IMG/VR virus record: IMGVR_UViG_3300042350_001802
Span: 1 to 64,000 of that record
Length of the DNA: 64,000 bases
Origin: a virus
Reading direction: 5' to 3' (one strand)
The position numbers and the translations under genes were made by a program. Position 1 is the first letter of the stretch, and each line of letters opens with the position of its first letter. The notes below the pieces were generated by a model, which was not told where the DNA came from, searched no databases, and was given only the letters and a program-made list of their open reading frames with translations. Below are positions 1,167-15,089 of this stretch, piece after piece.

Positions 1167-1554
1167 GATAATCAATCGCTTGACCTATAGATACAATAGT
1201 CTCTATTACAAGAGATAGTTCTTCCTTACTGCATTTACCAAAGCTTTTACAATAGAGAAAGGTTTCTCCCTCTATTTCTTTTTCAATACATATGCCAGCT
1301 CTGCGTTTAACTATCAGTTTCATATCTTCAAAAGTTTCTCCAATATGTTGCGATAGTTCTCTAATCATCGCGTGAATCTTTGCAAGCTGTGCAAGACTAC
1401 CATCATCGCTTTGAACTTCCATATAAACTTCTAGCTTATAACCTTCAGGTAGGTTATTTATAAAAGCTTCATACTTTATTTTATCAGCAGCTGTTACATA
1501 ATCAATTTGACCATTCTTTTTTTCTAATATGGTCATTAACGTATTCTTTCTCAT
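1156..1554 (-). CDS. Hypothetical protein, possibly NinB-like recombination protein
   Basis: 132 aa; its ATG overlaps the helicase stop codon (ATGA), so the two are translationally coupled. The C-terminal half has the layout of NinB/Orf-type phage recombination mediators: a helix with HAMIRELSQHIG, a basic stretch KLIVKRR, then SFGKCSKEELSLVIETI and a short end. This assignment rests on pattern only and is weak, but position beside an SF2 helicase and an HNH nuclease with a zinc finger fits a recombination/repair cassette. An alternative is a phage-specific protein of unknown fold. Confidence 0.6.
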   Translation of the reverse strand: MRKNTLMTILEKKNGQIDYVTAADKIKYEAFINNLPEGYKLEVYMEVQSDDGSLAQLAKIHAMIRELSQHIGETFEDMKLIVKRRAGICIEKEIEGETFLYCKSFGKCSKEELSLVIETIVSIGQAIDYPIG

Positions 1555-5729: not shown

Positions 5730-5807
5730 AGTTTAGTTTTTAGATTTAAAAAATGTCCCCAGTGTAGAAACACCGGGGTTGATTGCTTGTCATATGAAAA
5801 AAAACAG

Positions 5808-6162
5808 TGGAGGTGACGGGAATCGAACCCGTGTCCAACTAAGAACCTGTACATACAACGTCTCACATGCTTAGATCTGCAAGCTGATCAGTATAGGGAA
5901 CCAAGAGGTCGCATCCACCACCTAGTTTTATGACTACTAGGAAAACTGCTTGTCAGTTTCTGTTGCCAGGTATGACTACCCCGTAGGTTAGGCAGCTACT
6001 GCTACTTCACCGAAGATAGAAGCAAGGATTGCTTCACCTTCTGCTACACGCTCAGACTGAGTCATTGCGTTTATTAGTTGATTCCGAGATTAAAGTGGTT
6101 GGAGAACCATCCCACTGCATGTGTACATACCGACTGCATAGCTGTCAAATCCATGCACCCCC
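5808..6162 (-). ncRNA. ssrA: tmRNA (transfer-messenger RNA) with a 26-residue tag
   Basis: Rescues ribosomes stalled on mRNAs lacking a stop codon. The 5' end GGGGGTG pairs with 3' CACCTCC in a 7-bp acceptor stem containing the G3-U pair that alanyl-tRNA synthetase recognises; the discriminator is A at 5808. The T arm is ACGGG-TTCGATT-CCCGT, followed directly by the acceptor strand. The 5' segment ATGGATTTGACAG matches the tmRNA signature. A tag frame can be read from the resume codon GCA at 6068 (context AATAAACGCAATGAC, as in host tmRNAs) to TAA at 5988-5990: 26 residues beginning AMTQSERVAEGEA and ending GEVAVAA. CCA is not encoded (ACTG follows) and must be added. The tag is about 2-3 times the usual length and ends AVAA rather than ALAA. 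Confidence 0.95.
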
Positions 6163-8729: not shown

Positions 8730-8807
8730 TAGTCAGGACAGGATTCGAACCTATGAAGTACCACCACGGAAAAACAATCCTTGAGAAAACAATTCCGCCA
8801 CCTGACT
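8730..8807 (-). ncRNA. tRNA-like element TLE4 (acceptor and T arm, extra hairpin, no clear anticodon)
   Basis: AGTCAGG pairs perfectly with CCTGACT (7 bp, discriminator A). The T arm ATAGG-TTCGAAT-CCTGT (one G-U) joins the acceptor 3' strand without a gap, giving the standard 12-bp coaxial stack. Upstream of the T stem is TGGTACTTC, parallel to the TGGT bulges of TLE1-3. Between acceptor and TGGT is a 31-nt hairpin CGGAA/TTCCG with a 21-nt loop instead of normal D and anticodon arms. A tRNA finder might call a divergent tRNA here; I could not fit a sound anticodon stem (a forced fit gives GTT with mismatches). 97 bp after the stop codon of the 261-aa gene. Confidence 0.65.
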
Positions 8808-13012: not shown

Positions 13013-13046
13013 AAAAAAAGCAGGAGACAATTACATTACCTCCTGC
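13013..13046 (-). terminator. Rho-independent terminator
   Basis: GCAGGAG pairs with CTCCTGC around a 13-nt loop and is followed by TTTTTTT on the - strand. It ends the transcript carrying TLE1 and its downstream structured region. Confidence 0.88.
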
Positions 13047-13203
13047 GTTAGAACTACTTGAGTAGAAATTAGAGGAGCGACTATACGGGATGAGCTGACG
13101 CGTTCCAGAAACTAGTATTCTGTACTAAGCTAAATCAGAGTGACCGCCAATACGGTTCCGGTTTTTCTACGTTTCGTTCTAGGATGTGTGTTTTACATCT
13201 TTG
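13047..13203 (-). other. Structured non-coding RNA region downstream of TLE1
   Basis: No gene. Successive - strand hairpins: GATGT-AAAACAC-ACATC, ACCG/CGGT, CAGAA-TACTAGT-TTCTG, CTAC/GTAG, ending in the terminator. AACCGTAT and TGGCGGTNACT are shared with the region after TLE4. Confidence 0.5.
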
Positions 13204-13245
13204 CATCAGGGGTGGAATCGAACCACCCTTAACACCATGCTGATA
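13204..13245 (-). ncRNA. Miniature tRNA-like element TLE1
   Basis: Outer stem TATCAG/CTGATG (6 bp, one U-G) stacks without a gap on the inner stem GGGTGG/CCACCC capped by the T loop TTCGATT, 12 bp in total as in the tRNA acceptor/T minihelix. The only other part is an 11-nt 5' bulge, CATGGTGTTAA, whose GG could mimic the D-loop G18-G19 that docks on the T loop. It starts 5 nt after the stop codon of the Fis-type HTH gene. Confidence 0.75.
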
Positions 13246-13250
13246 AATTA

Positions 13251-13649
13251 TTATTCAATATCGTATTCTCTTATTTTACGATATAAAGTACGAGCACTAA
13301 TACCAAGAGCTTCAGCAGCATTATCTCTATGTCCTTTATGTCTTCTTAAAGCATTAATTATAGATCCTTTTTCCAGTACTATCATAGGAAGAATATTTTC
13401 TTCATCGTCTTCATATCGGTTATTCTTATATTCTTCAGAAGGTACTTTTAATGGTTCATATTTAAAAGTGTCTATCTCTTTTTTTTCTAGCTCATCCTGT
13501 AGTATTTTTACAAACATGCGTTTTAATTCTGTTACATCTTTTTTCATGTCAAAGAAAAGCTTGTAAAGAATTTCTTTTTCTGATGTATTAGCTTGTACTT
13601 CAGCTTTTAATTTTTCAATTAATTCAGATTTTAGGGTTTCAATATCCAT
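13251..13649 (-). CDS. Fis-type helix-turn-helix DNA-binding protein
   Basis: 132 aa, probable transcription regulator. Residues ~5-60 are helical and Glu/Lys-rich (possible dimerisation); residues 92-132 match the Fis/NtrC C-terminal HTH: EKGSIINALRRHKGHRDNAA, then EALGISARTLYRKIREY. There is no sigma-54 activation domain. I start at MDIETLKSEL (13649) because the longer open frame would run through the tRNA-like element TLE2 in its leader. Flanked by TLE2 upstream and TLE1 downstream, next to a ParB-like gene: a candidate regulator of the early-to-late switch. Confidence 0.85.
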   Translation of the reverse strand: MDIETLKSELIEKLKAEVQANTSEKEILYKLFFDMKKDVTELKRMFVKILQDELEKKEIDTFKYEPLKVPSEEYKNNRYEDDEENILPMIVLEKGSIINALRRHKGHRDNAAEALGISARTLYRKIREYDIE

Positions 13650-13664
13650 AGATTTAAGTTTTAG

Positions 13665-13707
13665 AACTAGGAGGGGGAATCGAACCCCCTCTAGAACCAT
13701 TCTAGTT
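13665..13707 (-). ncRNA. Miniature tRNA-like element TLE2
   Basis: Outer stem AACTAG/CTAGTT (6 bp), inner stem GAGGGGG-type 7 bp closing T loop TTCGATT, and a 10-11 nt bulge AATGGTTCTA. The first two bases of the outer stem are the last two bases of the TAA stop codon of the ParB-like gene. Both stems differ from TLE1 and TLE3 by paired changes, while the bulge ATGGT and T loop are kept. Confidence 0.78.
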
Positions 13708-14602
13708 AAGCACACTCGTTAAAAAAGTTAAAGATGTTATCTTTATCTCCATTAACAAATGTGAGTTTTTCACTATTCTTTTTCAGATAGTTACAAAATC
13801 TTGTGTGATTATAAGTGGAAAAGTTTTGGGTTACGTATTCTACATAAGCACCTACAAAGAACTTATTAGAAATACGGTCCATACGAGGTACAATGTTCAA
13901 TACATCAGTTACAAAATCTAAGATTTGTACTGCTCTATCTTCGTTTTTCACTTTAAATGTACCCTTCTTGATAACCGAGTTTACTCCACCACTACCAGCA
14001 TTTCTACCACTAAGAATAGAAGCAATAGTTTGCACTTCAAGATCATACTGATTAAAGTAGTGAGATAGTTTCTTATAATCAGGACGGATAAATGACCATA
14101 TTTGGATATAGTCTTTTAACTGCCATGACTTAGAACTTGAGTTTAACAATGCTGTTTTCTCTACTAATTCTTCTTCGTTTTTGATTTCTATCTCTACATA
14201 TGGAATATCCATATTTAGACGAAGAAGAGCAAAATAGAGGTGTTGACCATCAATAATGTACCAACCTTTAAGACCAGCAAAATCAAGATATGCAACTACA
14301 ACAGGACGGATGATCCCCATTAGTTGTATAGATGTTGCAAGAAGCGTCACTTGAGCAGGAATAATGGCACGGTTGATACCTTCTAAGAACTTAAAACCAA
14401 TCTTCGCTACTTTCTCAAGGATCTTTACATTAAATAAATCGCGCATCTTTTTACTGTAGGTGTTACGCTGACCTTTTGTTTTTGATGATTGGTTCTCGGT
14501 TTGAGGTTCATCAGGTGTGACTCGCATTTTACCTTTCTCTATTACTAGAGCTTTTCTTTTGACAGTGAGTTTGTTACTGTCATTCTTTTTTTTGTTTTTC
14601 AT
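13706..14602 (-). CDS. ParB/Srx-fold protein
   Basis: 298 aa. Basic N terminus (residues 1-60, KNKKKNDSNK...) then the ParB/sulfiredoxin fold: IIPAQVTLLATSIQLMG, RPVVVAYLDF, and the signature WYIIDGQHLYFALLRL with Asp118-Gly-Gln-His121. A helical part with EKTALLNSSSKSW and SIL-type HTH-like segment follows. ParB-fold proteins bind DNA and hydrolyse CTP or act as nucleases; phage versions are common but untested. Its stop codon is embedded in tRNA-like element TLE2, and TLE3 lies just before its leader. Confidence 0.85.
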   Translation of the reverse strand: MKNKKKNDSNKLTVKRKALVIEKGKMRVTPDEPQTENQSSKTKGQRNTYSKKMRDLFNVKILEKVAKIGFKFLEGINRAIIPAQVTLLATSIQLMGIIRPVVVAYLDFAGLKGWYIIDGQHLYFALLRLNMDIPYVEIEIKNEEELVEKTALLNSSSKSWQLKDYIQIWSFIRPDYKKLSHYFNQYDLEVQTIASILSGRNAGSGGVNSVIKKGTFKVKNEDRAVQILDFVTDVLNIVPRMDRISNKFFVGAYVEYVTQNFSTYNHTRFCNYLKKNSEKLTFVNGDKDNIFNFFNECA

Positions 14603-14639
14603 ACAAAGATGAATTTAGGGTTTAAAATAAGGGTTTCAG

Positions 14640-14683
14640 AACCAGGGAGAGGAATCGAACCTCTCCTTGCTACCATACTGGTT
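14640..14683 (-). ncRNA. Miniature tRNA-like element TLE3
   Basis: Outer stem AACCAG/CTGGTT (6 bp), inner stem GGAGAGG/CCTCTCC (7 bp) with T loop TTCGATT, 11-nt bulge TATGGTAGCAA. The AA of the preceding gene's TAA stop codon (14682-14684) forms the first two bases of the outer stem, exactly as in TLE2. Confidence 0.78.
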
Positions 14684-15023
14684 AATATGTGATCACCAAT
14701 CTCTGCACTCCATCTGCGTAGTTCATAATAGAAATGCTTTTGATGGGAACATAGATGGTGTTACCTTCTGTTTCAATAACAGTTGGTGTGGTGTACACAT
14801 CGTTTGCTCTCACAGTTTTAGATCCTAGGGGTTTACCAAGTTTAACAGTCGGATCTATGTCTGTTAATCTTTTACCTGTTAGTTTACGCCAATAAGCGTA
14901 TACAGAGGCATAACTGTGCTTCGTTGTCCGAGAAAAGGATCTAAGTTCTTTTCTGGTAGAGAGTGTAGCTAACTCTTTTAGCTGACTATCAGTGTAATAC
15001 TGATATTTTTTACGTCTTCCCAT
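14682..15023 (-). CDS. Small basic DNA-binding-like protein
   Basis: 113 aa. The first 60 residues (MGRRKKYQYYTDSQLKELA, then SVYAYWRKLTGKRL) look like a basic three-helix, homeodomain/SANT-like or HTH unit; the rest is beta-rich. Position beside the ParB-like and Fis-type HTH genes supports a regulatory role. The family is not recognised. Confidence 0.68.
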   Translation of the reverse strand: MGRRKKYQYYTDSQLKELATLSTRKELRSFSRTTKHSYASVYAYWRKLTGKRLTDIDPTVKLGKPLGSKTVRANDVYTTPTVIETEGNTIYVPIKSISIMNYADGVQRLVITY

Positions 15024-15064: not shown

Positions 15065-15089
15065 AAAGGGGAGTGTAGAGACACCCCCC
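15065..15089 (-). terminator. Hairpin terminator
   Basis: GGGG.GTGT and ACAC.CCCC pair around AGAG with one A-C mismatch; TTTTATTTG follows on the - strand. It closes the unit of the small lipoprotein at 15110-15247. Confidence 0.7.

Follow-up and report, generated by a model that had tools for sequence, protein, structure and literature searches.

Miniature tRNA-like elements at the stop codons of phage genes: candidate punctuation marks in polycistronic mRNAs

The first 64 kb of the 127,227-bp virus record IMGVR_UViG_3300042350_001802, hereafter the window, carry three miniature tRNA-like elements (TLE1, TLE2 and TLE3), each placed 3′ of one of the three genes of a minus-strand unit. The elements belong to a class that we find in considerably more than a hundred phage records, with at least 226 distinct members in the viral loci that we fetched. 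TLEs have a common structure with covarying stems and a tRNA-type 3′ flank, stand at stop codons, occur in phages and can form multi-gene arrays. We think it rather probable that they are cis-acting, tRNA-like punctuation in polycistronic phage mRNAs, read by the tRNA-processing enzymes of the host. Such punctuation would be a bacterial counterpart of the tRNA punctuation of organelles, and a possible answer to the question of how phages set mRNA ends within long operons.

Detection of the elements

All three elements of the initial annotation, which had been made by reading the window, were recovered with their coordinates and strand (Table 1). A descriptor of the fold (stack of 11-13 bp; T loop TTCRANN closed by GG/CC; 7-14-nt bulge containing GG) matched three times in the window and not once in the reversed window or in 300 dinucleotide-preserving shuffles. 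Over 2.0 Mb of fetched viral loci it gave 195 matches, against 0 in the reversed sequences. The string GGTTCGATTCC has four exact copies in the window; with one mismatch allowed there are five matches where 0.31 are expected, one of them being the T arm of a tmRNA gene. A covariance model trained on TLE1 and 22 elements from other phages returned exactly TLE1-3 (54, 46 and 40 bits), with no further copy in the whole 127-kb record.

Single-sequence folding energies reach z-scores of only -1.7 to -2.5 for the window elements, and TLE2 favours a competing fold; the tRNA-like fold therefore rests on covariation and not on energy. Existing models pass over the class. ARAGORN made no call at TLE1-3, the Rfam tRNA model (RF00005) gave TLE2 18.5 bits against a gathering score of 29 and did not list TLE1 or TLE3, and an Rfam scan of the window and about 45 further TLE loci placed no family at a TLE. 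The Rfam matches of note elsewhere in the scanned loci were tmRNA, one tRNA, one hammerhead, one sub-threshold twister and one Gln-II riboswitch.

Pairing and covariation across the class

A letter pattern combining the D loop and T loop, with no criterion on the acceptor, matched at least 120 viral stretches. Pairing was evaluated on the 121 usable hits: the T stem has at least 5 bp in 106 of them, against 13.5 with the linkers dealt out, and the acceptor has at least 5 bp in 71, against 7.5 (maximum 15) with the strands dealt out. An alignment of 23 elements gave 96.7% of pair cells paired, compared with 54% after shuffling (0 of 500 shuffles as high). Both sides were altered in 125 cells, and the covariation score was 1.09, compared with 0.20 when shuffled. 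Since these 23 had been selected for a clean stack, the unselected test on the 121 hits is the stronger one. Stem diversity is high, with 135 different acceptor stems and 107 different T stems among 180 distinct elements. The split of the stack between the two stems varies (7+6, 6+6, 7+5, 5+7), but together they mostly make up 12 or 13 bp.

Because of the search pattern, ATGGT and TTCGATT are over-represented in the retrieved sets. A rescan with no condition on the T-loop sequence or on GG takes away this bias within the loci, and there GG stood in the bulge of all 127 minihelices with a T loop (33 of them outside the retrieval pattern), compared with 5 of 18 minihelices with other loops. The covariation of the stems that had been claimed from the three window elements is thus upheld very strongly, the T loop and the GG are both kept among relatives, the 12-13-bp stack likened to the tRNA acceptor/T minihelix recurs in them, and the further intergenic copies that had been predicted were found in number, in unrelated phages.

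Whether the elements could be remnants of decaying tRNA genes has to be asked, given that larger, more tRNA-like variants lie nearby (window 8731-8807). Under decay, hundreds of copies at stop codons would not keep their stems covarying or preserve the GG, the T loop and a tRNA-type 3′ end; the covariation already contradicts such an origin, and we hold it to be the most improbable of the explanations considered. An acceptor that carries aminoacylation identity was also dropped as an idea, the acceptor stems being too variable.

The bulge as a miniature D-arm

What had first been described as a plain 5′ bulge proved to be a miniature D-arm, in which 1-3 bp close a TGG triloop. The bases around ATGGT pair in all three window elements (C-G, A-T and T-A). 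Among 138 relatives this closing pair is Watson-Crick in 126, where 44 are expected (maximum 62 in 1000 shuffles), and its types are A-T (58), T-A (34), C-G (23) and G-C (11). In the enlarged set of 226 elements the triloop is TGG in 209, CGG in 9 and AGG in 8; 196 elements have A-T as the inner pair and 16 have T-A; and the pair outside the inner one is Watson-Crick in 167, compared with 59 expected. The ATG of the D loop was considered as a start codon and rejected, for it is missing from the CGG, AGG and TTGGA variants.

The reported absence of an anticodon arm holds, as just 10-11 nt separate the acceptor from the T stem, and the miniature D hairpin fills them. The whole resembles the top half of a tRNA. 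Its D-arm could bring the GG up to the T loop, where by analogy with tRNA structure it would dock. TLEs have the features that tRNA enzymes read, without what decoding needs.

Placement at stop codons and gene junctions

For the placement test, the stop codon of an open reading frame (ORF) of at least 60 aa had to lie within -25..+10 of the first base of an element. A stop on the same strand was found at the element start in 108 of 165 cases, compared with 10 of 165 on the opposite strand and 6.8% at random positions. The start of a downstream ORF lies within 150 nt in 109 of 147 cases, compared with 30% at random. The distance from stop to element ranges from -25 to +8 and that from element to next start from 2 to 150 nt. 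In the window, as had been noted, the TAA of the ParB-like gene holds the first bases of TLE2 and the TAA of the 113-aa gene those of TLE3; TLE1 begins 5 nt 3′ of the TAA of the Fis-like gene. In subfamily A (TGATGGTGTAGG) the TGA stop itself belongs to the acceptor and D-arm (TGATGG). Taking the boundary at 12 bp, 72 of 112 stops would outlast a cut on the 5′ side and 40 would not.

The stop embedded in subfamily A and in the +1/+2 class would suit a translational device, that is, a fold regulating termination, reinitiation or the coupling of neighbouring genes, for example by showing a tRNA-like elbow to the ribosome. We rate this as improbable: the distances to the stop and to the next start vary widely, and such a device leaves the tRNA-type 3′ flanks and the encoded CCA unexplained.

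The clearest array is in the viral locus L260, where twelve small genes (75-133 aa) follow in a row with a TLE after each; up to 12 TLEs fall in 4 kb. Elements that are oriented, follow stops, accompany small-gene arrays and are present or absent at homologous junctions could also mark the boundaries of exchangeable cassettes at the DNA level, as recombination sites or mobile hairpins like integron attC. The conserved part of a TLE is, however, the tRNA elbow and 3′ end, and the stems differ between copies in many phages; an attC site has paired core sites and works with a cognate tyrosine integrase, and the conserved positions of TLEs are those of tRNA. A role of this kind is very hard to credit.

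Alternatively the excised RNA itself may be the product, a trans-acting mini-tRNA serving as a decoy or sponge for host tRNA enzymes or for tRNA-directed defence toxins. As the top half of a tRNA, such a product would be compact and modifiable, and several phages have it in many copies. The fixed relation to stops and next starts would be unexpected for a trans-acting RNA, the copies are scattered between genes and not clustered as tRNA genes are, and an RNA without an anticodon cannot sponge anticodon nucleases. Because the stems vary within a fixed architecture, copies follow successive genes and the placement is at stop codons, a role in cis fits better, and we give the trans-acting product little chance.

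The 3′ end

Counted from the T loop, the helix takes up 12 nt and the discriminator base (N73) one more; positions 74-76 follow. In subfamily B, in the first scan, C74 was found in 31 of 62 elements, T or A at 75 in 52 and A76 in 33. The tRNA genes on the same contigs have C74 in 206 of 236, their commonest triplets being CCA (74), CAA (27), CTA (26) and CTT (21). The bases at 74-76 in TLEs (CTA, CAA, encoded CCA) agree with those of phage tRNA genes, with C74, T/A75 and A76 enriched alike. CCA is rarer in first-scan TLEs (3/77) than in same-contig tRNAs (74/236; p = 1e-7), and in the L260 array it stands exactly at 74-76 in 9 of the 12 consecutive elements, the others having CTA (2) or CAA (1). 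For comparison, a T4 tRNA precursor has UAA in place of CCA (PMC11143913).

Bacillus subtilis RNase Z is stimulated about 200-fold when a U lies no more than 2 nt from the discriminator (PMC10100781). Among TLEs, a U at 74 or 75 is found in 14 of 15 elements of subfamily A (background 0.39, p = 2e-5) and in 36 of 62 of subfamily B (background 0.42, p = 0.008); TLE2 of the window has a U at 75. Intrinsic terminators were rejected as an identity for the elements, whose 3′ flanks are A-rich without a U tract and at which no terminator was called.

These flanks also bear on the main rival, a 3′ cap, in which only the 3′ side would be processed (RNase Z, CCA addition) and the TLE would stay on the upstream mRNA to shield it from 3′ exonucleases. 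Plant RNA viruses may be protected in the same way by their tRNA-like 3′ ends. The CTA/CAA flanks and the U at 74/75 suit RNase Z, and if the 5′ side is left uncut the 40 of 112 stops that lie partly inside the element stay whole. Yet the CCA encoded in L260 would block RNase Z but favour RNase P, and the remaining 72 stops would outlast a 5′ cut. On balance we regard the cap as unlikely.

Proposed mechanism

Punctuation in cis, the reading that we favour, would work as follows. When the terminating ribosome leaves, the element would fold into the top half of a minimal tRNA, with a 12-bp acceptor/T stack, a T loop and a 1-3-bp D-arm; the GG of the D-arm would dock into the T loop, and host tRNA-maturation enzymes would recognise the elbow and the acceptor. 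RNase P would cut on the 5′ side; the 3′ side would be matured by RNase Z or, where CCA is encoded, by 3′ exonucleases, and the CCA enzyme may finish the 3′ end. Cuts between genes would thereby turn the message into shorter mRNAs whose ends are defined, and the 42-45-nt mini-tRNA would be excised or kept as a stable 3′ end. We infer folding in vivo, docking, cleavage, the acting enzyme and a benefit to the phage; that a terminating ribosome keeps the element open is suggested by geometry. Escherichia coli RNase P RNA cuts a hairpin that consists of an acceptor stem, a T stem and a T loop, and does so at the canonical position (PMC11143913).

The initial annotation had proposed marks at which host enzymes cut or cap the mRNA. 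What punctuation predicts at the level of sequence (further copies, covariation, GG and T loop, stack, 3′ ends, placement at stops) was borne out; the cap and the choice of enzyme would be a further step.

Several observations weigh against punctuation. The 40 of 112 stops partly inside the element complicate a simple model of cuts on both sides. TLE1 of the window is an exception to the 3′ pattern, with AAA and no U at 74 or 75. In the relatives of the ParB-like gene (loci L007-L014) a TLE is absent after parB, so the element is dispensable there and elements are gained and lost at gene junctions. Self-cleaving ribozymes neighbour TLEs in just 1 of 41 TLE-bearing records, and the idea that the two are generally interchangeable was rejected on this count. 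To our knowledge, the action of bacterial RNase Z on RNAs with long 5′ leaders is not established for these hosts.

A bolder extension, possible but doubtful, is a pan-phage punctuation code in which very different phage lineages use minimal, stop-fused tRNAs as separators; a ribosome on the embedded stop would keep the TLE unfolded, and host tRNA enzymes would cut the message only when translation pauses. If true, mRNA processing would be coupled to translation via a stripped-down tRNA that never decodes.

Relation to known systems

The closest known kind is the t-elements of plant mitochondria, part of the tRNA punctuation of organelles: tRNA-like structures beside genes, which set mRNA ends via RNase P and RNase Z and are CCA-tailed but not aminoacylated (PMC11658184). 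Both kinds are tRNA-like and adjoin the ends of protein genes. The t-elements are homologous to tRNA genes, have a predicted typical tRNA-like secondary structure, are organellar and number few per genome (8 annotated in Arabidopsis), whereas TLEs have 42-45 nt, lack an anticodon arm, have a D-arm of 1-3 bp and occur in DNA phages. Because TLEs lack the homology to tRNA and the typical structure by which t-elements are defined (no cloverleaf, no Rfam or ARAGORN match), we set them apart even though the two would act alike.

With tRNA itself (RF00005) TLEs share the 12-bp acceptor/T stack, the T loop TTCRANN, an equivalent of G18G19, and N73 followed by CTA, CAA or CCA; they differ in having no anticodon arm and no ordinary D stem, and fall below the family threshold. 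Acceptor/T minihelix substrates of RNase P and external guide sequences represent the same minimal substrate, cleaved in vitro (PMC11143913), whereas TLEs are natural and genome-encoded, stand at stop codons and have a D-arm mimic in addition. RNase P also processes phage and operon RNAs that are not tRNAs (C4 antisense RNA, M3 RNA, operon spacers; PMC11143913), but these are individual RNAs of other kinds, and TLEs have no Rfam match. The tRNA-like 3′ structures of plant RNA viruses are likewise viral mimics of tRNA; they are, however, pseudoknotted and sit at the genome 3′ end, and in brome mosaic virus aminoacylation is needed (PMC11658184).

No family of Rfam 15 covers the class, and no description of it was found in an open-access library of papers, preprints and subscription papers lying outside the search. 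TLEs offer a natural series of minimal tRNA substrates, lacking the anticodon arm, having a D-arm of 1-3 bp and ending with or without CCA, on which the needs of RNase P, of RNase Z, of the CCA enzyme and of enzymes that modify the T loop could be probed.

Distribution

Simple enough to be recognised by eye, the element turns up in crAss-like phages and a marine T7-like cyanophage; genomes of Bacteroidota, Bacillota and Actinobacteria have it in single copies. A viral record has as many as 12 TLEs. The isolated marine T7-like cyanophage S-TIP37 has a TLE at NC_048026.1:20518-20567 that overlaps the gp32 stop just ahead of the major head protein, and the crAss-like phage csAssE-Sib has one at OR575929.1:149811-149863; neither is annotated in its record. 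A Glutamine-II riboswitch lies just 5′ of the small S-TIP37 gene gp32 that ends in the TLE (NC_048026.1:20335-20388; L327:5336-5389). In marine contigs, subfamily A is found upstream of psbA or capsid genes. At the loci L059 and L084 it starts 105-106 nt ahead of viral psbA genes, so that the class borders a photosynthesis gene; the psbA-linked cyanophage motif PhotoRC-II was rejected as an identity, with no Rfam match on either.

Cellular genomes rarely have a TLE, and usually no more than one (Cytophagaceae, Bacteroidales, Paenibacillus, Clostridia, Corynebacterium); two surveys of cellular genomes found a TLE in 8 of 71 and 3 of 121. The cellular copies probably sit in prophages, a setting that we only glimpsed: one Corynebacterium copy adjoins a stretch similar to phage antirepressor genes. 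When sequence around TLE contigs was compared by BLAST with named phages, several contigs had no match and one had a partial match, to a Corynebacterium phage.

Three further neighbourhoods contain structured or conserved sequence. Many leaders of the L260 array (L260:2900-7000, plus strand) have a second hairpin-like stretch (CCATGCTACA..TGTAGCAG), then TAAACCAA ahead of the start codon. In two Corynebacterium-type loci (L051 and L208, minus strand) a conserved sequence of about 200 nt follows 3′ of the TLEs (GTGTCC[TC]AGCGG[GA]ACTACTTG..TGTCTTAGAT[TC]GC[GC]ATGACC) and is possibly another structured RNA. A RAGATH-1 hammerhead and a sub-threshold type-P1 twister (L060:1158-1234 and 1283-1346, minus strand) lie less than 1 kb from two TLEs on the same strand.

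The window

The minus strand has, in this order, a terminator-like site, the 113-aa gene, the ParB-like gene, the Fis-type helix-turn-helix (HTH) gene and a non-coding stretch of about 180 nt that ends in another terminator-like site; a TLE stands 3′ of every one of these genes (Table 1). In TLE3 the acceptor pairs 14683-14678 with 14645-14640, the D-arm-like part is T[ATGGT]A, the T stem has 7 bp and the T loop is TTCGATT. The non-coding stretch is possibly a small RNA, whose 5′ end would come from processing of TLE1.

Table 1. Three-gene unit of the window and its elements (window coordinates; parts of the elements are written 5′ to 3′ on the minus strand)
Feature	Position	Strand	Bits (covariance model)	Parts	Remarks
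TLE3	14640..14683	-	40.1	14683-14640: AACCAG/TATGGTAGCAA/GGAGAGG/TTCGATT/CCTCTCC/CTGGTT	mini tRNA-like element
TLE2	13665..13707	-	45.8	13707-13665: AACTAG/AATGGTTCTA/GAGGGGG/TTCGATT/CCCCCTC/CTAGTT	mini tRNA-like element
TLE1	13204..13245	-	54.4	13245-13204: TATCAG/CATGGTGTTAA/GGGTGG/TTCGATT/CCACCC/CTGATG	mini tRNA-like element
113-aa gene	14682..15023	-			first in unit; no family match
ParB-like partition protein	13706..14602	-			second gene in unit; PHROG 12305
132-aa Fis-type HTH protein	13251..13649	-			third gene; Pfam HTH_8; ATG directly 3′ of TLE2
Terminator-like site	15068..15089	-			upstream of the three-gene unit
Non-coding stretch of ~180 nt after TLE1	13020..13203	-			ends in terminator-like hairpin 13046-13020; folding z = -2.2

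Named phages gave no DNA relatives of the window region; the portal protein of the window is similar to the portals of Leptolyngbya phage Lbo-JY46 and of crAss-like phages. A phage-borne tmRNA gene lies at window 5805-6162 (minus strand; Rfam 87.5 bits) and encodes a 26-aa tag, AMTQSERVAEGEAILASIFGEVAVAA. Between two genes at window 8731-8807 (minus strand), where ARAGORN made no call, lies a larger, degenerate tRNA-like sequence with acceptor AGTCAGG...CCTGACT, T arm GGTTCGAATCC and a Leu/Ser-like D region, which may be an intermediate between tRNA and TLE.
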